From Thermoplasmata archaeon (lineage in GTDB: Archaea; Thermoplasmatota; Thermoplasmata; Thermoplasmatales; Thermoplasmataceae): DNA of 41,852 nt. The DNA is taken from contig JAKAUW010000076.1 in the NCBI GenBank assembly GCA_021817455.1, positions 1-41,852 on the forward strand. Direction: 5' to 3'. This document shows positions 212 through 5,775 of this stretch, piece by piece (position 1 is the first letter of the stretch; each line of letters begins with the position of its first letter). The notes below the pieces were generated by a model. That model was not told the origin of the DNA and made no database searches. It worked only from the letters and a program-made list of their open reading frames with translations. The translations under genes and the position numbers were made by a program.

Positions 212-826
212 TCAGTAGTGCAATGTGAAATTAAACTGCACATACTCACCAAAAGAGTTTGGATTGGGGCCTGGCGGATACACCGGGGGATTATAAGTCA
301 ACCCAATATAATAAGATGCAGCTGGGCCATTGTAAAGTGGGAATGGACCAGTTTCGGTATTATTATACAACCTTATTCCTGGGGAACTTGTGGTTTGCCA
401 ACTGTGGTTCATGTATACCGACACATACTTTGTATAATTGTCATAATAAATTGTGCTTCCCATCTTGGCCCACTGCACAATAGTAGCGGTGATATTTCCT
501 GTTATATTTCCTACATTCAGGAGTTCCAGAATATTCCAATAATCCGTTCTGGTAGTCACATTGAAGTTAACATGCACTCTAAGAACGCCAGTTAAGGTGT
601 TATTATACATGCTGTAGTTCCACGCGAAAGTGCTTCCTTGGGGTGGGGTGAAGTTTTCGGGGGGAATCACGATAATCGGCGGGCCCGTTACCGTCTGAGT
701 TATTTTGATAAGACCCTGGGCAGAGATGTCACCAGTGGATTGCGGAGCCACGATAATTATTGAAATCAGGAACGAAACCGAGATTACCATTATAGACTTC
801 ATCAAGGGATTGACTTTTTGGCCCAT
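212..826 (-). CDS. Secreted beta-rich protein, fourth and most divergent paralog of a tandem family
   Basis: Unknown function. An N-terminal hydrophobic segment (about residues 7-30) reads as a signal peptide or membrane anchor. The rest is rich in Asn, Thr, Tyr and Pro, with about eight N-x-S/T sequons, as expected for an extracellular archaeal protein. Three blocks line up by eye with the three genes upstream: an early strand ending in AWN (residues about 55-60), a middle NILEL block, and a late YYIGLTYNPP block before a short terminal strand. This is why I place it in the same family. I start it at the ATG at 826, which has GGAG just upstream; the ATG at 838 is possible. It has its own likely promoter (TATA-like box near 893-900) and is separated from the other three by a T-rich stretch. 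Confidence 0.7.
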   Translation of the reverse strand: MGQKVNPLMKSIMVISVSFLISIIIVAPQSTGDISAQGLIKITQTVTGPPIIVIPPENFTPPQGSTFAWNYSMYNNTLTGVLRVHVNFNVTTRTDYWNILELLNVGNITGNITATIVQWAKMGSTIYYDNYTKYVSVYMNHSWQTTSSPGIRLYNNTETGPFPLYNGPAASYYIGLTYNPPVYPPGPNPNSFGEYVQFNFTLHY

Positions 827-890
827 ATTACTCTCCATCCAAGCTCAACGCGTTGCCTCTTCCTATCTTTAGGTAAATATGACCTGCGGG

Positions 891-901
891 CTAATATAAA
901 T
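891..901 (-). promoter_or_regulatory. TATA-like box for the 212-826 gene
   Basis: On the minus strand this reads as an A/T box of the form TTTATATT. It predicts a transcript start near 865-870 and a leader of roughly 40 bases containing GGAG before the ATG at 826. It suggests the fourth paralog is transcribed apart from the three-gene operon. Confidence 0.4.
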
Positions 902-960
902 CAGTGAATAAGTTCTCTATAGAATTTCTTGCTCCGTAAAATGGCAGGTATCAGGCCTTG

Positions 961-992
961 TAAAAAAAGGGAAAATAAATAATTTATAAAAA
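961..992 (-). terminator. T-rich terminator after the three-gene secreted-protein operon
   Basis: Directly after the stop at 994, the minus strand reads as several T tracts (including a run of seven T) without an obvious hairpin. Archaeal intrinsic termination works at oligo-T tracts. It separates the 994-2794 operon from the gene ending at 212. Confidence 0.4.
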
Positions 993-993
993 T

Positions 994-1575
994 TTAGCTT
1001 GCAGTGTAAGTTCCAGTCAGGAATAATTCCCCAAGTGTTGATGCACCATCGTATGGTGGTGTGAAGAACCCGATGTAGATGATTGTTGAACCATCAACAG
1101 GAGTCGTGAATGACTGGGGTCCGGATAACGGGAATGCTGTTACAGCTGGGTTTGTTATCACAGGAACTGCTCCGGGAAGGCCGCTATAGCTGAAGTCACT
1201 AAAGCTCATTGGAGACAGGGATAGATACATTGTTGATCCAGGGACGAAGGCAGAGGATACTGTGGAGTTCAGATAGAAATTTCCCGTTGGTAAAGAGGAA
1301 ACAAAGTGGATTTCCATCACGTTTATGATGAAAGTTGTCTGGTTAGTTACCTCTCCAAATCTCAAGTCCCCCATGTAATTTCCGCTGGAGTACGCGTTCC
1401 ATGCCACCGATCCATCTGCAGCCTGGAAGTTTGATCCCTTTTCGAGCCAGAATGTATTGCTGTTATTTGTTCCATGTATAGCCACATTGCCTGTTATCAT
1501 AACATCTGCTATTGCAACAGCTGGCATGATCGTGGCAATAAGACCAACTACAAGGAATGTTAATTTTCGATTCAT
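994..1575 (-). CDS. Secreted beta-rich protein, paralog 3 of the tandem family
   Basis: Unknown function. The N-terminus is a classical signal peptide: MNRK, a hydrophobic core to about residue 20, then AVAIA followed by DVMITGN, so the mature protein probably begins at Asp. The mature part is Ser/Thr/Gly-rich and beta-like, with N-x-S/T sequons. It has no C-terminal membrane segment, so it is probably released or assembled on the surface. The last 30 residues (YIGFF, then LFLTGTYTAS) match the ends of its two upstream neighbours. I use the ATG at 1575 because AAAGGAG lies 8 bases before it; a GTG at 1584 in the same frame sits on the ribosome site itself. It follows the previous gene by about 20 bases in one operon. 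Confidence 0.8.
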   Translation of the reverse strand: MNRKLTFLVVGLIATIMPAVAIADVMITGNVAIHGTNNSNTFWLEKGSNFQAADGSVAWNAYSSGNYMGDLRFGEVTNQTTFIINVMEIHFVSSLPTGNFYLNSTVSSAFVPGSTMYLSLSPMSFSDFSYSGLPGAVPVITNPAVTAFPLSGPQSFTTPVDGSTIIYIGFFTPPYDGASTLGELFLTGTYTAS

Positions 1576-1594
1576 TTTTTTCACTCCTTTTACC

Positions 1595-2215
1595 TCAAGA
1601 CAAAGCCACGAACTGGCCAGTCAGTATTGCACCACTACCTGCATACAGTCCAGGTGAAAGCAGGAAGCTTATGTATATAGTCTGCGCAGGTGCGAAGCCT
1701 GTTATGAGCAGGTGTGGGTTCTGCGAAAGATCAACAGCAACCACTGTGGAGAGAGATGCTGCGTTCACTGCAATCGATGGGTCGCCAGATGTGTACGATG
1801 TTACCGAGGTGGACTGAAGTGTGCTGAAGGTGATCTGCGATGTGGAGAGCACCATTATGGTTCCACTGGGGAAATCAGATGATGACACATTGAGATAGAG
1901 CCCCGAGAATGCAGCAGGAGCTGCTGGATTGCTTATCGACATGTTCAGGTCGAGTACGTTGATCATCTCTGTCTGCACATAGTAGCTTCCTTCCAGATCC
2001 ACGGTTCCCATTGTTGCATCATTGGACGGTGTCCACCCTAATGAATTGGTGGAGTTGGCTGCATAGTAGTTAGGACCTGGTTGGAAATAGAAAGCGGTGT
2101 GATGATGGTAACTTTCTAGTGATAGTTGCCCAGTCACCATAACATCAGCCACGGCTACCGCTGGAAGTATTGCCGTAACAGCAGCTATCATGAGCAAGGC
2201 GATTTTCTTATTCAT
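1595..2215 (-). CDS. Secreted beta-rich protein, paralog 2 of the tandem family
   Basis: Unknown function. It has a signal peptide with core IAAVTAILPAVAVA, almost identical to that of the gene upstream, and mature start DVMVTGQ. The mature 180 residues are beta-like and rich in Ser, Thr, Asn and Ala, with no further membrane segment. Shared blocks with its neighbours are a PGPNYYAA/GW block near residues 47-62, NVLDLNM near residue 86, and a YISFLL...LTGQF end. The ATG at 2215 is preceded by GAGGTG, which overlaps the TGA stop of the gene upstream, so the two are translationally close. It may be a subunit of a surface filament or layer; that is inference. Confidence 0.8.
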   Translation of the reverse strand: MNKKIALLMIAAVTAILPAVAVADVMVTGQLSLESYHHHTAFYFQPGPNYYAANSTNSLGWTPSNDATMGTVDLEGSYYVQTEMINVLDLNMSISNPAAPAAFSGLYLNVSSSDFPSGTIMVLSTSQITFSTLQSTSVTSYTSGDPSIAVNAASLSTVVAVDLSQNPHLLITGFAPAQTIYISFLLSPGLYAGSGAILTGQFVALS

Positions 2216-2224
2216 CCATTCACC

Positions 2225-2794
2225 TCATGATGCAAAGAACGTTCCTGTTATAGTGCCACTAGACCCTGCATATGATAAGCTTGCTGGCAGGTAGAAACTG
2301 ATGTAGTATGTTGTTGTTCCACCCTGGAATGGCCCTGTGTATGTGAAAGTAGCACTGTTGATTGACTGGCCACCTACTTGGGACATTACATCATTGACCG
2401 TCGTTTGTGTTGATGTAATCCAGACCAGTGCACCTGCAGGGAAATCTCCTGTGAAGTTTACATAGAGTGTTCCAGTAACTCCAGCGTTAATTGTCACATT
2501 GAGATCCAGGACATTTGCAAGGGCGGTTGTCTGATTTGCTATACCTTCCAGATCGAATGTTGCCATGGGTGCGACTGAGCCTTCAGTCTGTGAGACTCCG
2601 GCATTTGGGTTCCACGCTATTGCTCCTATTGCGAATGCTGACGGATAGTTCGGTCCGGGCTGGATGACAAAAACCGGCGCGTTCTGAGTTCCGTTCACTA
2701 AAACATTACCTGTGATCATCACATCTGCAACAGCAACAGCTGGAAGTATTGCCGTAACAGCTGCAATGAGCAGCAGGGTTACTCTTCGATTCAT
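2225..2794 (-). CDS. Secreted beta-rich protein, paralog 1, first gene of the operon
   Basis: Unknown function. It has a signal peptide (MNRR, hydrophobic core, AVAVA) and mature start DVMITGNV. Mature domain of about 165 residues contains FVIQPGPNY, AWNP, NVLDLNVTI and a YYISFYLP...TGTFFAS end, all repeated in the two genes downstream. The frame stays open to 2836, but the ATG at 2794 follows AAAGGAGG at 6 bases and puts the signal peptide at the very N-terminus, so I choose it. A TATA-like box lies near 2845-2854. DNA coding for the signal peptide shares more than 20 identical bases with the next gene, which suggests recent duplication or gene conversion. The general pattern (signal peptide, short mature beta-domain, no anchor) recalls TasA-like or donor-strand archaeal filament subunits, but I cannot show homology. 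Confidence 0.8.
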   Translation of the reverse strand: MNRRVTLLLIAAVTAILPAVAVADVMITGNVLVNGTQNAPVFVIQPGPNYPSAFAIGAIAWNPNAGVSQTEGSVAPMATFDLEGIANQTTALANVLDLNVTINAGVTGTLYVNFTGDFPAGALVWITSTQTTVNDVMSQVGGQSINSATFTYTGPFQGGTTTYYISFYLPASLSYAGSSGTITGTFFAS

Positions 2795-2978: not shown

Positions 2979-3665
2979 CTAAACCAGCAGTGAGTGAAAC
3001 AGATTTACAAAAAGAATTGCTGATGTAAAGACATAAGTGGATAAAGTCCCTGCAATGGATAGTTTTTCTATTTTCCCTGAAGGAAGGGCAAAGAAGCCAT
3101 ATGACAGGAACAGGATCGAAGTGATGATAGCATAGATGATTATTCCCCGTGCAAATAGGTTGAAACTTGAAATCCACTGCATGGAAGGCATATAGAATAG
3201 AAGAAAAGTGCCAACAGCTATCATCAGGAGTGTCATAATCATTCTTGGTTTTGTCTTAGACACCCTCATGATAACAGTGGACAGAAAAGAGACTGCAAAG
3301 AGGAGGCCAAGAGTAGAGTAAACCAAAAACTGCCAGTCTATAGAAAATGACGGAAAAAGCCTCGTTATGCTGGATGAAGGCAGAAGCAGTAATGACAGGA
3401 GAATCCAGATGTTTACAGCTAACATAGTAAGCTGAACATTCTTGGCTGTGCTGTAAAAAAACCCCATGCCATTCAATGTCATTTCAGAGGAACTGTACAG
3501 TTCTCCTCCAGCCAACTTTGGATTTTCTTTGGCCACAGCAACAACTGACATTTGATTTCTCTTGATTTTAACATTTCTGATTTCAAAGTAGAAAAGAAGG
3601 GACATTACACCGGCAATGAGGAAATCTGGAAATATTGAAAGAAATGCACTCAGATCGAAACCCAT
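2979..3665 (-). CDS. Polytopic membrane protein of unknown function
   Basis: I do not recognise a family. The 228 residues contain about six hydrophobic segments, roughly at residues 8-27, 82-98, 110-130, 140-158, 170-187 and 205-225. A hydrophilic loop lies between the first two (about 30-75) and is rich in Lys, Glu and Ser. There are no obvious catalytic motifs. The ATG at 3665 has no ribosome site; a TATA-like box at 3695-3702 would give a very short leader. It lies upstream of, and on the same strand as, the secreted-protein operon, with a gap of about 180 bases, so co-regulation is possible but unproven. Confidence 0.7.
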   Translation of the reverse strand: MGFDLSAFLSIFPDFLIAGVMSLLFYFEIRNVKIKRNQMSVVAVAKENPKLAGGELYSSSEMTLNGMGFFYSTAKNVQLTMLAVNIWILLSLLLLPSSSITRLFPSFSIDWQFLVYSTLGLLFAVSFLSTVIMRVSKTKPRMIMTLLMIAVGTFLLFYMPSMQWISSFNLFARGIIIYAIITSILFLSYGFFALPSGKIEKLSIAGTLSTYVFTSAILFVNLFHSLLV

Positions 3666-5109: not shown

Positions 5110-5775
5110 ATGGCCAAACCAAAAGAGAGTACACTGTTCGAGGAGCCAGAATTTGACGAGAAAGAATTCCTCACCATTGAGAGAGATAGAGGCATTGGCA
5201 TAATTGTAATATTTATTGTAGGTGCCCTCAGTGGGATACTTGCAGGCTACTTGCAACTACAGGGTTATGCCTACCTGTCTGTGCTACTAATGCTTGCAGT
5301 CCTGGTACTTCTTACTAGAATTCTAAAGGCATTGAGAATAAAGGTATCGGCAAGGGCATCGCACAGGATAATCAACTACGGAATGTACATCTTCACGTGG
5401 CTCCTTTTCTGGATCATATTGCTTAACCCGCCGGTGAGCGTGGTCTCATCCCCGCAGATCCACACTTTCCAGGTGGATCAGGCTGGAACCTGGAGCAACC
5501 TCACTATAACTTCTACAGGGGCATATAACGGCTTGACAGGCTCCAATCAATATAGCATCCACCTAACATACAAGTACAATTTCTCCATACCTTCCAACGG
5601 ATTCTATTACACTCAAGGCGGCCAGCAGATACAACAGGCATATAGTTTCCAAAACGGATATGTTAACTTCTCGCTGCAGTCTAGCTACGGAGACACTTAT
5701 AATTTCTATCTTGATTGGAGTTCCCCGGCCGCCAGCAGTCCGCATCCCCTGGAGTTTACCCTTGTGGTGGGTTAG
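5110..5775 (+). CDS. Membrane protein with extracytoplasmic C-terminal domain
   Basis: Function unknown. An acidic cytoplasmic N-terminus (about residues 1-27) is followed by three hydrophobic segments at about 29-50, 54-70 and 92-107. The C-terminal 110 residues are rich in Ser, Thr, Tyr and Asn with several N-x-S/T sequons, so they probably lie outside the membrane. It starts at an ATG 12 bases after tpiA and is probably co-transcribed with it, though a functional link is not evident. The next feature is the tRNA-Gly gene on the same strand. Confidence 0.75.
   Translation: MAKPKESTLFEEPEFDEKEFLTIERDRGIGIIVIFIVGALSGILAGYLQLQGYAYLSVLLMLAVLVLLTRILKALRIKVSARASHRIINYGMYIFTWLLFWIILLNPPVSVVSSPQIHTFQVDQAGTWSNLTITSTGAYNGLTGSNQYSIHLTYKYNFSIPSNGFYYTQGGQQIQQAYSFQNGYVNFSLQSSYGDTYNFYLDWSSPAASSPHPLEFTLVVG

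Follow-up and report, generated by a model that had tools for sequence, protein, structure and literature searches.

A conserved gene module for anchorless secreted beta-proteins in Thermoplasmatales as a candidate donor-strand surface filament

The window (i.e., the whole stretch of 41,852 nucleotides analysed here) is contig 5 of a 1.76-Mb genome of a member of the Thermoplasmatales, an acid-loving archaeon without a cell wall. Near its start lie four genes for small secreted proteins (g1-g4) and a gene for a membrane protein, with the following features:

212-826, minus strand: g4, putative minor subunit; signal peptide about 731-826, mature start DISAQGLIKI
686-730, minus strand: predicted donor strand of g4 (mature residues 1-15), placed by aligning its residue 1 to residue 1 of the major subunits
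994-1575, minus strand: g3, third putative major subunit; signal peptide 1507-1575, mature start DVMITGNVAI, from the alignment
1462-1506, minus strand: predicted donor strand of g3 (mature residues 1-15), placed by alignment with g1
1595-2215, minus strand: g2, second putative major subunit; signal peptide 2147-2215, mature start DVMVTGQLSL
2102-2146, minus strand: predicted donor strand of g2 (mature residues 1-15), placed by alignment with g1
2225-2794, minus strand: g1, first putative major subunit, from its open reading frame; signal peptide 2726-2794 (23 aa), mature part of 166 aa, start DVMITGNVLV
2681-2725, minus strand: predicted donor strand of g1 (mature residues 1-15), unplaced in the structure model, with conserved V2 and in thread register
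2979-3665, minus strand: membrane protein with 6 hydrophobic segments (6-TM protein), upstream of g1

The three-gene operon at 994-2794 and the separate fourth gene at 212-826 that the earlier note had described were confirmed. The spacers between g1 and g2 and between g2 and g3 are just 9 and 19 nt, so that g1-g3 are operon-like, while g3 and g4 are separated by 167 nt. The start of g3 is the conserved ATG at 1575 and not the GTG at 1584. The operon g1-g3 recurs in three congeners and in one other genus (L031-L034), in which the g1 orthologs are 72-81% identical and g2 keeps its second place in the operon order. Given this recurrence and the presence of the family in 35 of the 117 genomes of the order, the arrangement of the locus is not due to chance. 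Another conserved neighbour on the plus strand (5110-5775) has three hydrophobic segments at its N-terminus and, at the C-terminus, a domain of the secreted type; it is assigned to no confident family.

When g1 was compared with its own genome, g2 and g3 were found with identities of 45% (E 5e-23) and 37% (E 6e-16), respectively, and these alignments identify g1, g2 and g3 as clear paralogs. Their signal peptides are all 23 aa long, and nearly all major subunits of the Thermoplasmataceae type have signal peptides of 22-25 aa. A23 and D24-V25 around the cleavage site are invariant across the 15 closest sequences. In a wider set of majors, D is found at mature position +1 in 21/39 and V at +2 in 36/39. 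The motifs listed by the earlier note were recovered by alignment: A/DV-M-I/V-T-G, GPNY/GSNF, W, NVLDL/NVMEI, Y(I)S/G-F and TGxF/Y are present in g1-g3, and NILEL and YYIG are found in g4, which is cleaved at G/DISAQG. The absence of a C-terminal hydrophobic anchor likewise held for all four mature proteins, which also lack cysteine. The claim that all four carry many N-glycosylation sequons (i.e., N-x-S/T) stood for g4 only, which has 10 sequons compared to 3.1 expected by shuffling, a number reached in 0/2000 shuffles; the 4, 3 and 3 sequons of g1, g2 and g3 are at chance level. Pfam and NCBIfam profiles gave no family match to the window proteins, nor did Pfam match the relatives from outside the order. 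Matches of two Pfam families, ComS and Myco_arth_vir_N, which fall around the signal peptide, were below the cut-off and were rejected.

The earlier note had counted four paralogs, and the fourth proved to be divergent. With a profile built from 4 close sequences, the relation of g4 to g1-g3 was below detection; it became detectable on the mature sequences only, once the alignments were enlarged. A profile of 11 g4 orthologs from six genera, restricted to the mature part, matched the majors by hhalign with a probability of 96.5 and an E-value of 7.5e-10, and the alignment begins at residue 1 of both. The mature proteins of the orthologs start with G/DVMISG, A/DVAVTG and G/DVMIIS, and the DISAQG of g4 is thus read as the same mature start as that of the majors. 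Because the mature parts align from their first residue and the ortholog starts match, we take g4 to be a divergent paralog of the majors and a conserved minor subunit homologous to them. Its orthologs are found in 12/117 genomes and 6 genera. The structure model of g4, built from 4 sequences, had a pLDDT of 30 and was not used.

The major family is found in 18/33 genera of the Thermoplasmatales order and also outside it, in the families f14, f15 and f31 of the class, in which most copies again start with A/DV directly behind the signal peptide; in the f15 genomes, the majors stand in tandem. At two loci outside the order (L110 179-2987 and L111 327-3328), the majors are followed by a secreted protein of about 500 aa and then by a small multi-TM protein. 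The distribution bears on the possibility that these proteins form an unordered external layer of S-layer-free cells, held by lateral or membrane-protein association and not by head-to-tail polymerisation. Thermoplasmatales have a dense exterior protein layer of ~20 nm and carry no genes for an S-layer (PMC12448462), g4 is enriched in sequons, and a mixed coat would be in keeping with several paralogs that are expressed together. However, none of the four proteins has an anchor, and the absence of the family from 82/117 genomes of the order would be odd for a general coat.

The earlier note had ended the unit at 2794, but the 6-TM gene at 2979-3665 also belongs to it. The 6-TM family is found in 25/117 genomes, and its gene lies within 3 kb (≤3 kb) of a major-subunit gene at 24/35 loci in nine genera, compared to an expectation of 0.28. 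The protein has no match in Pfam or NCBIfam, and profile searches found no member of its family outside the order; the membrane genes adjoining the majors in L110 and L111 have a like position and no profile match to it. The 6-TM protein is a candidate for a membrane base or an assembly factor. The window's own genome has a second locus (L096 4509-6579, G000:C23) with a major, a minor-like and a 6-TM gene, which is a diverged operon of the AVVV type.

In three genera (genomes G107, G108, G109, G012 and G013), the module also includes a second, divergent paralog of type I signal peptidase. The gene order is major, signal peptidase, minor and 6-TM in G108 and G109, where the genes span ≤3.5 kb. 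In G107, all four genes are found within 6.2 kb, and in G012 and G013 the 6-TM gene is grouped with the peptidase and the major(s). The divergent peptidase family is found in 101/117 genomes and is distinct from the copies of the same genomes that score better to the archaeal type I signal peptidase model. The linked copies of three genera (labelled g6, g8 and g12) form one clade apart from the second copies of the same genomes (support 0.99), and the divergent peptidase retains the motifs of the serine (SESM) and the histidine (IIHR). In the window genome, a divergent type I peptidase is present outside the cluster; the idea that this copy is dedicated to the module was dropped, as it has no linkage to the module and clusters with the general copies outside the linked clade. 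A further small membrane protein adjoins the divergent peptidase in several genera (L034 3387-4010, L122 1605-2189 and L124 1214-1816) and is possibly one more member of the module.

The AlphaFold model of mature g1, built with 15 sequences, has a pLDDT of 76 and a pTM of 0.71 and is a beta-sandwich of about 12 strands. Its first 15 residues are unplaced, with pLDDT below 50, and the rest is confident. In the model, the tail looks as that of a donor-strand subunit modelled alone should look, which by itself would be no proof of exchange. Foldseek searches of the PDB with this model had the jelly-rolls of carbohydrate-binding modules as the best matches (E 1e-3, TM-score ≤0.39), and the top 50 matches included no filament subunit and no TasA, so that the fold match to a named filament that might have backed the earlier note was not obtained. 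Could the proteins, then, be secreted carbohydrate-binding or adhesive proteins that work as monomers or small oligomers? These neighbours are the evidence for it, but matches as weak as these are typical of any jelly-roll, and we rejected a carbohydrate-binding function drawn from them as generic similarity. Moreover, such a function has no Pfam or NCBIfam match to back it and leaves the conserved unplaced N-terminus, the paralog arrays and the linked peptidase unexplained. We therefore regard it as very unlikely.

A search of the whole PDB with a full-length family profile that included the signal peptide gave the thread protein Saci_0406 (7pnb) as the best match (E 0.0046). This score comes mostly from the signal peptide and the cleavage site: the mature part alone scores 3.6 bits, compared to 13.4 bits for the signal peptide with 9 further residues, and after shuffling of the rest the full score was reached in 2/2000 cases. 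Thread homology drawn from this profile was thus rejected. The match was lost in a mature-only search of the PDB, and the wide profiles A7 and A12 gave nanobody noise only. Because of the signal-peptide-driven score and this noise, HMMER evidence alone was not accepted for a relation to threads.

Profile-profile comparison gave a different picture of the mature N-terminus. When the mature-only, class-wide alignment was compared with residues 24-85 of Saci_0406 by hhalign, the probability was 47.6 and the pairwise E-value 1.9e-4, and the alignment starts in register, at mature residue 1 of the family. This score was above that of 200/200 shuffles and of every unrelated ORF compared, the one higher background ORF (L108_2802) being itself a match of the major family. 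The similarity sits in the N-terminal strand region (i.e., the first 26-60 mature residues); the heads alone gave a probability of 0.3% and hence no head homology. The family thus shares the tail signature of the threads. We do not claim that it belongs to the thread family, as it lacks the YYY motif and shows no homology in the head. Cleavage of Saci_0406 falls at LVA/DV, and the strand at its N-terminus completes the adjacent subunit (PMC9715654). The N-terminal tail in thread register, the minor subunit and the linked dedicated peptidase fit a filament better than the unordered coat considered above, which we hold to be unlikely.

The thread protein of Sulfolobus acidocaldarius (Saci_0406, PDB 7PNB, arCOG10215) resembles the window proteins in its 23-aa class I signal peptide cut at A/DV, its mature N-terminal beta-tail, its beta-rich head and its lack of an anchor. 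It also has a neighbouring related subunit, Saci_0405, as the majors here have g4, although g4 has a signal peptide and none is predicted for Saci_0405. The differences are clear as well. The thread has YYY directly behind the cleavage site, whereas the window proteins have DVMITG or DVMVTG and the relatives outside the order DVxLxY, with at most one Tyr. The thread has one major subunit, while the window locus has three major paralogs and a distant minor one; threads carry five N-glycans, whereas g1-g3 are not enriched in sequons; and the linked signal peptidase and the 6-TM protein have no counterpart reported for the thread. An isopeptide bond joins the N-terminus of the thread subunit to an Asn of subunit n-2, for which the near-invariant Asn of the family, residue 26 of the mature protein (in GxNY), is at best a candidate. 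Reports of threads are limited to some Crenarchaea, and the neighbourhood of Saci_0406 revealed no chaperone, usher or platform (PMC9715654).

In outline, the module is also like the TasA/TapA/SipW system of Bacillus subtilis, in which a major beta-subunit, a minor subunit and an archaeal-type signal peptidase are clustered, as they are here in the relatives, with sipW inside tapA-sipW-tasA (PMC9674648). TasA has its donor strand at the mature N-terminus, and the same is predicted for the window family; the window module differs by a conserved 6-TM protein and several major paralogs. The likeness to TasA/camelysin that the earlier note had proposed did not appear by profile: no such match was found in Pfam for the window proteins and the relatives outside the order, or in NCBIfam for the window proteins. 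AbpA, the archaeal bundling pilus subunit of Pyrobaculum calidifontis, forms a donor-strand filament and is said to be related to TasA in structure (PMC9674648). For AbpA, compared here indirectly, a Pfam domain has been reported (PMC9715654), whereas the window family has none.

Thermoplasmatales also make type IV pili and archaella (PMC12448462), and the proteins might be minor or accessory subunits of those filaments. In type IV pilins and archaellins, however, the signal peptide is of class III and the mature protein begins with a hydrophobic helix, whereas the window proteins have class I signal peptides whose hydrophobic segment is removed at an A-x-A/D site and a polar, beta-stranded mature N-terminus. 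Nor does the module contain a gene for a pilus ATPase or platform, its neighbours being the 6-TM protein and signal peptidase I. A role in these filaments is hardly credible.

We propose, with a probability of about 0.66, that the locus encodes a surface filament built by donor-strand complementation, a counterpart in Thermoplasmata of the archaeal threads and the TasA fibre. The proteins g1-g3 would be co-expressed major subunits exported via Sec and cut at A/DV by signal peptidase I, in particular by the divergent enzyme that is encoded inside the cluster in relatives. The cut majors would be released as jelly-roll-like beta-sandwiches short of one strand, and the freed N-terminal strand (D-V-M-I-T-G...) would fill the groove of the next subunit. 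The minor subunit g4, with a donor strand of its own, may be terminal, nucleating or capping, in a role like that of Saci_0405 or TapA, and the 6-TM protein would mark the filament's site in the membrane as its base or assembly factor. Sequence is the basis for every step as far as cleavage; for filament formation, donor-strand exchange, polymerisation, the order of subunits and the roles of g4 and the 6-TM protein, we infer from threads and TasA (PMC9715654, PMC9674648).

The filament-like character that the earlier note saw in anchorless, tandem beta-proteins is thus strengthened by the unplaced N-terminus, the thread-register tail, the minor subunit and the peptidase in relatives. Against it stand the confinement of the thread similarity to the signal peptide and the mature N-terminus, the loss of the 7pnb match with mature-only profiles, the Foldseek result and the unlinked peptidase of the window genus. 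The two Thermoplasmatales imaged by cryo-EM had type IV pili and archaella plus a protein layer, and no filament of the thread-like kind was reported (PMC12448462); this observation makes the coat the main rival. The module itself is real, conserved and so far unnamed. As far as the literature is searchable, this filament system of Thermoplasmata has not been described, which agrees with the earlier note, but the system would be a relative or analogue of a known kind and not wholly new. That it is a distinct Thermoplasmata class of donor-strand filament is a bolder and rather doubtful idea: interchangeable majors, a minor tip, a dedicated peptidase and a 6-TM platform, with a near-constant signal peptide and donor strand on diversified heads, might give mixed filaments with swappable surfaces. 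On this bolder idea, the 6-TM protein would be the first candidate for an assembly platform of archaeal donor-strand filaments.

If the filament reading is true, thread-like filaments would extend to cells that lack an S-layer and for which few surface proteins have been identified (PMC12448462). The small defined gene set (i.e., the major and minor subunits, the 6-TM protein and the peptidase) gives a hint of how filaments of this type may be assembled.

Two observations concern the 5' ends of the major-subunit genes in other genomes. At L035 5445-11875 (contig 76 of G009), five tandem majors have signal-peptide regions identical at 69/69 nucleotides and strongly diverged heads, a pattern suggestive of gene conversion or of an exchange of 5' ends; the majors of the window genus, unlike those at L035, differ at many synonymous sites in their signal-peptide region. 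In G109, the contigs L087 and L088 (at their ends) and L089 (at its start) break exactly within the signal-peptide region of the majors, which is where breaks should fall if the 5' end is a repeat that is identical in several copies.
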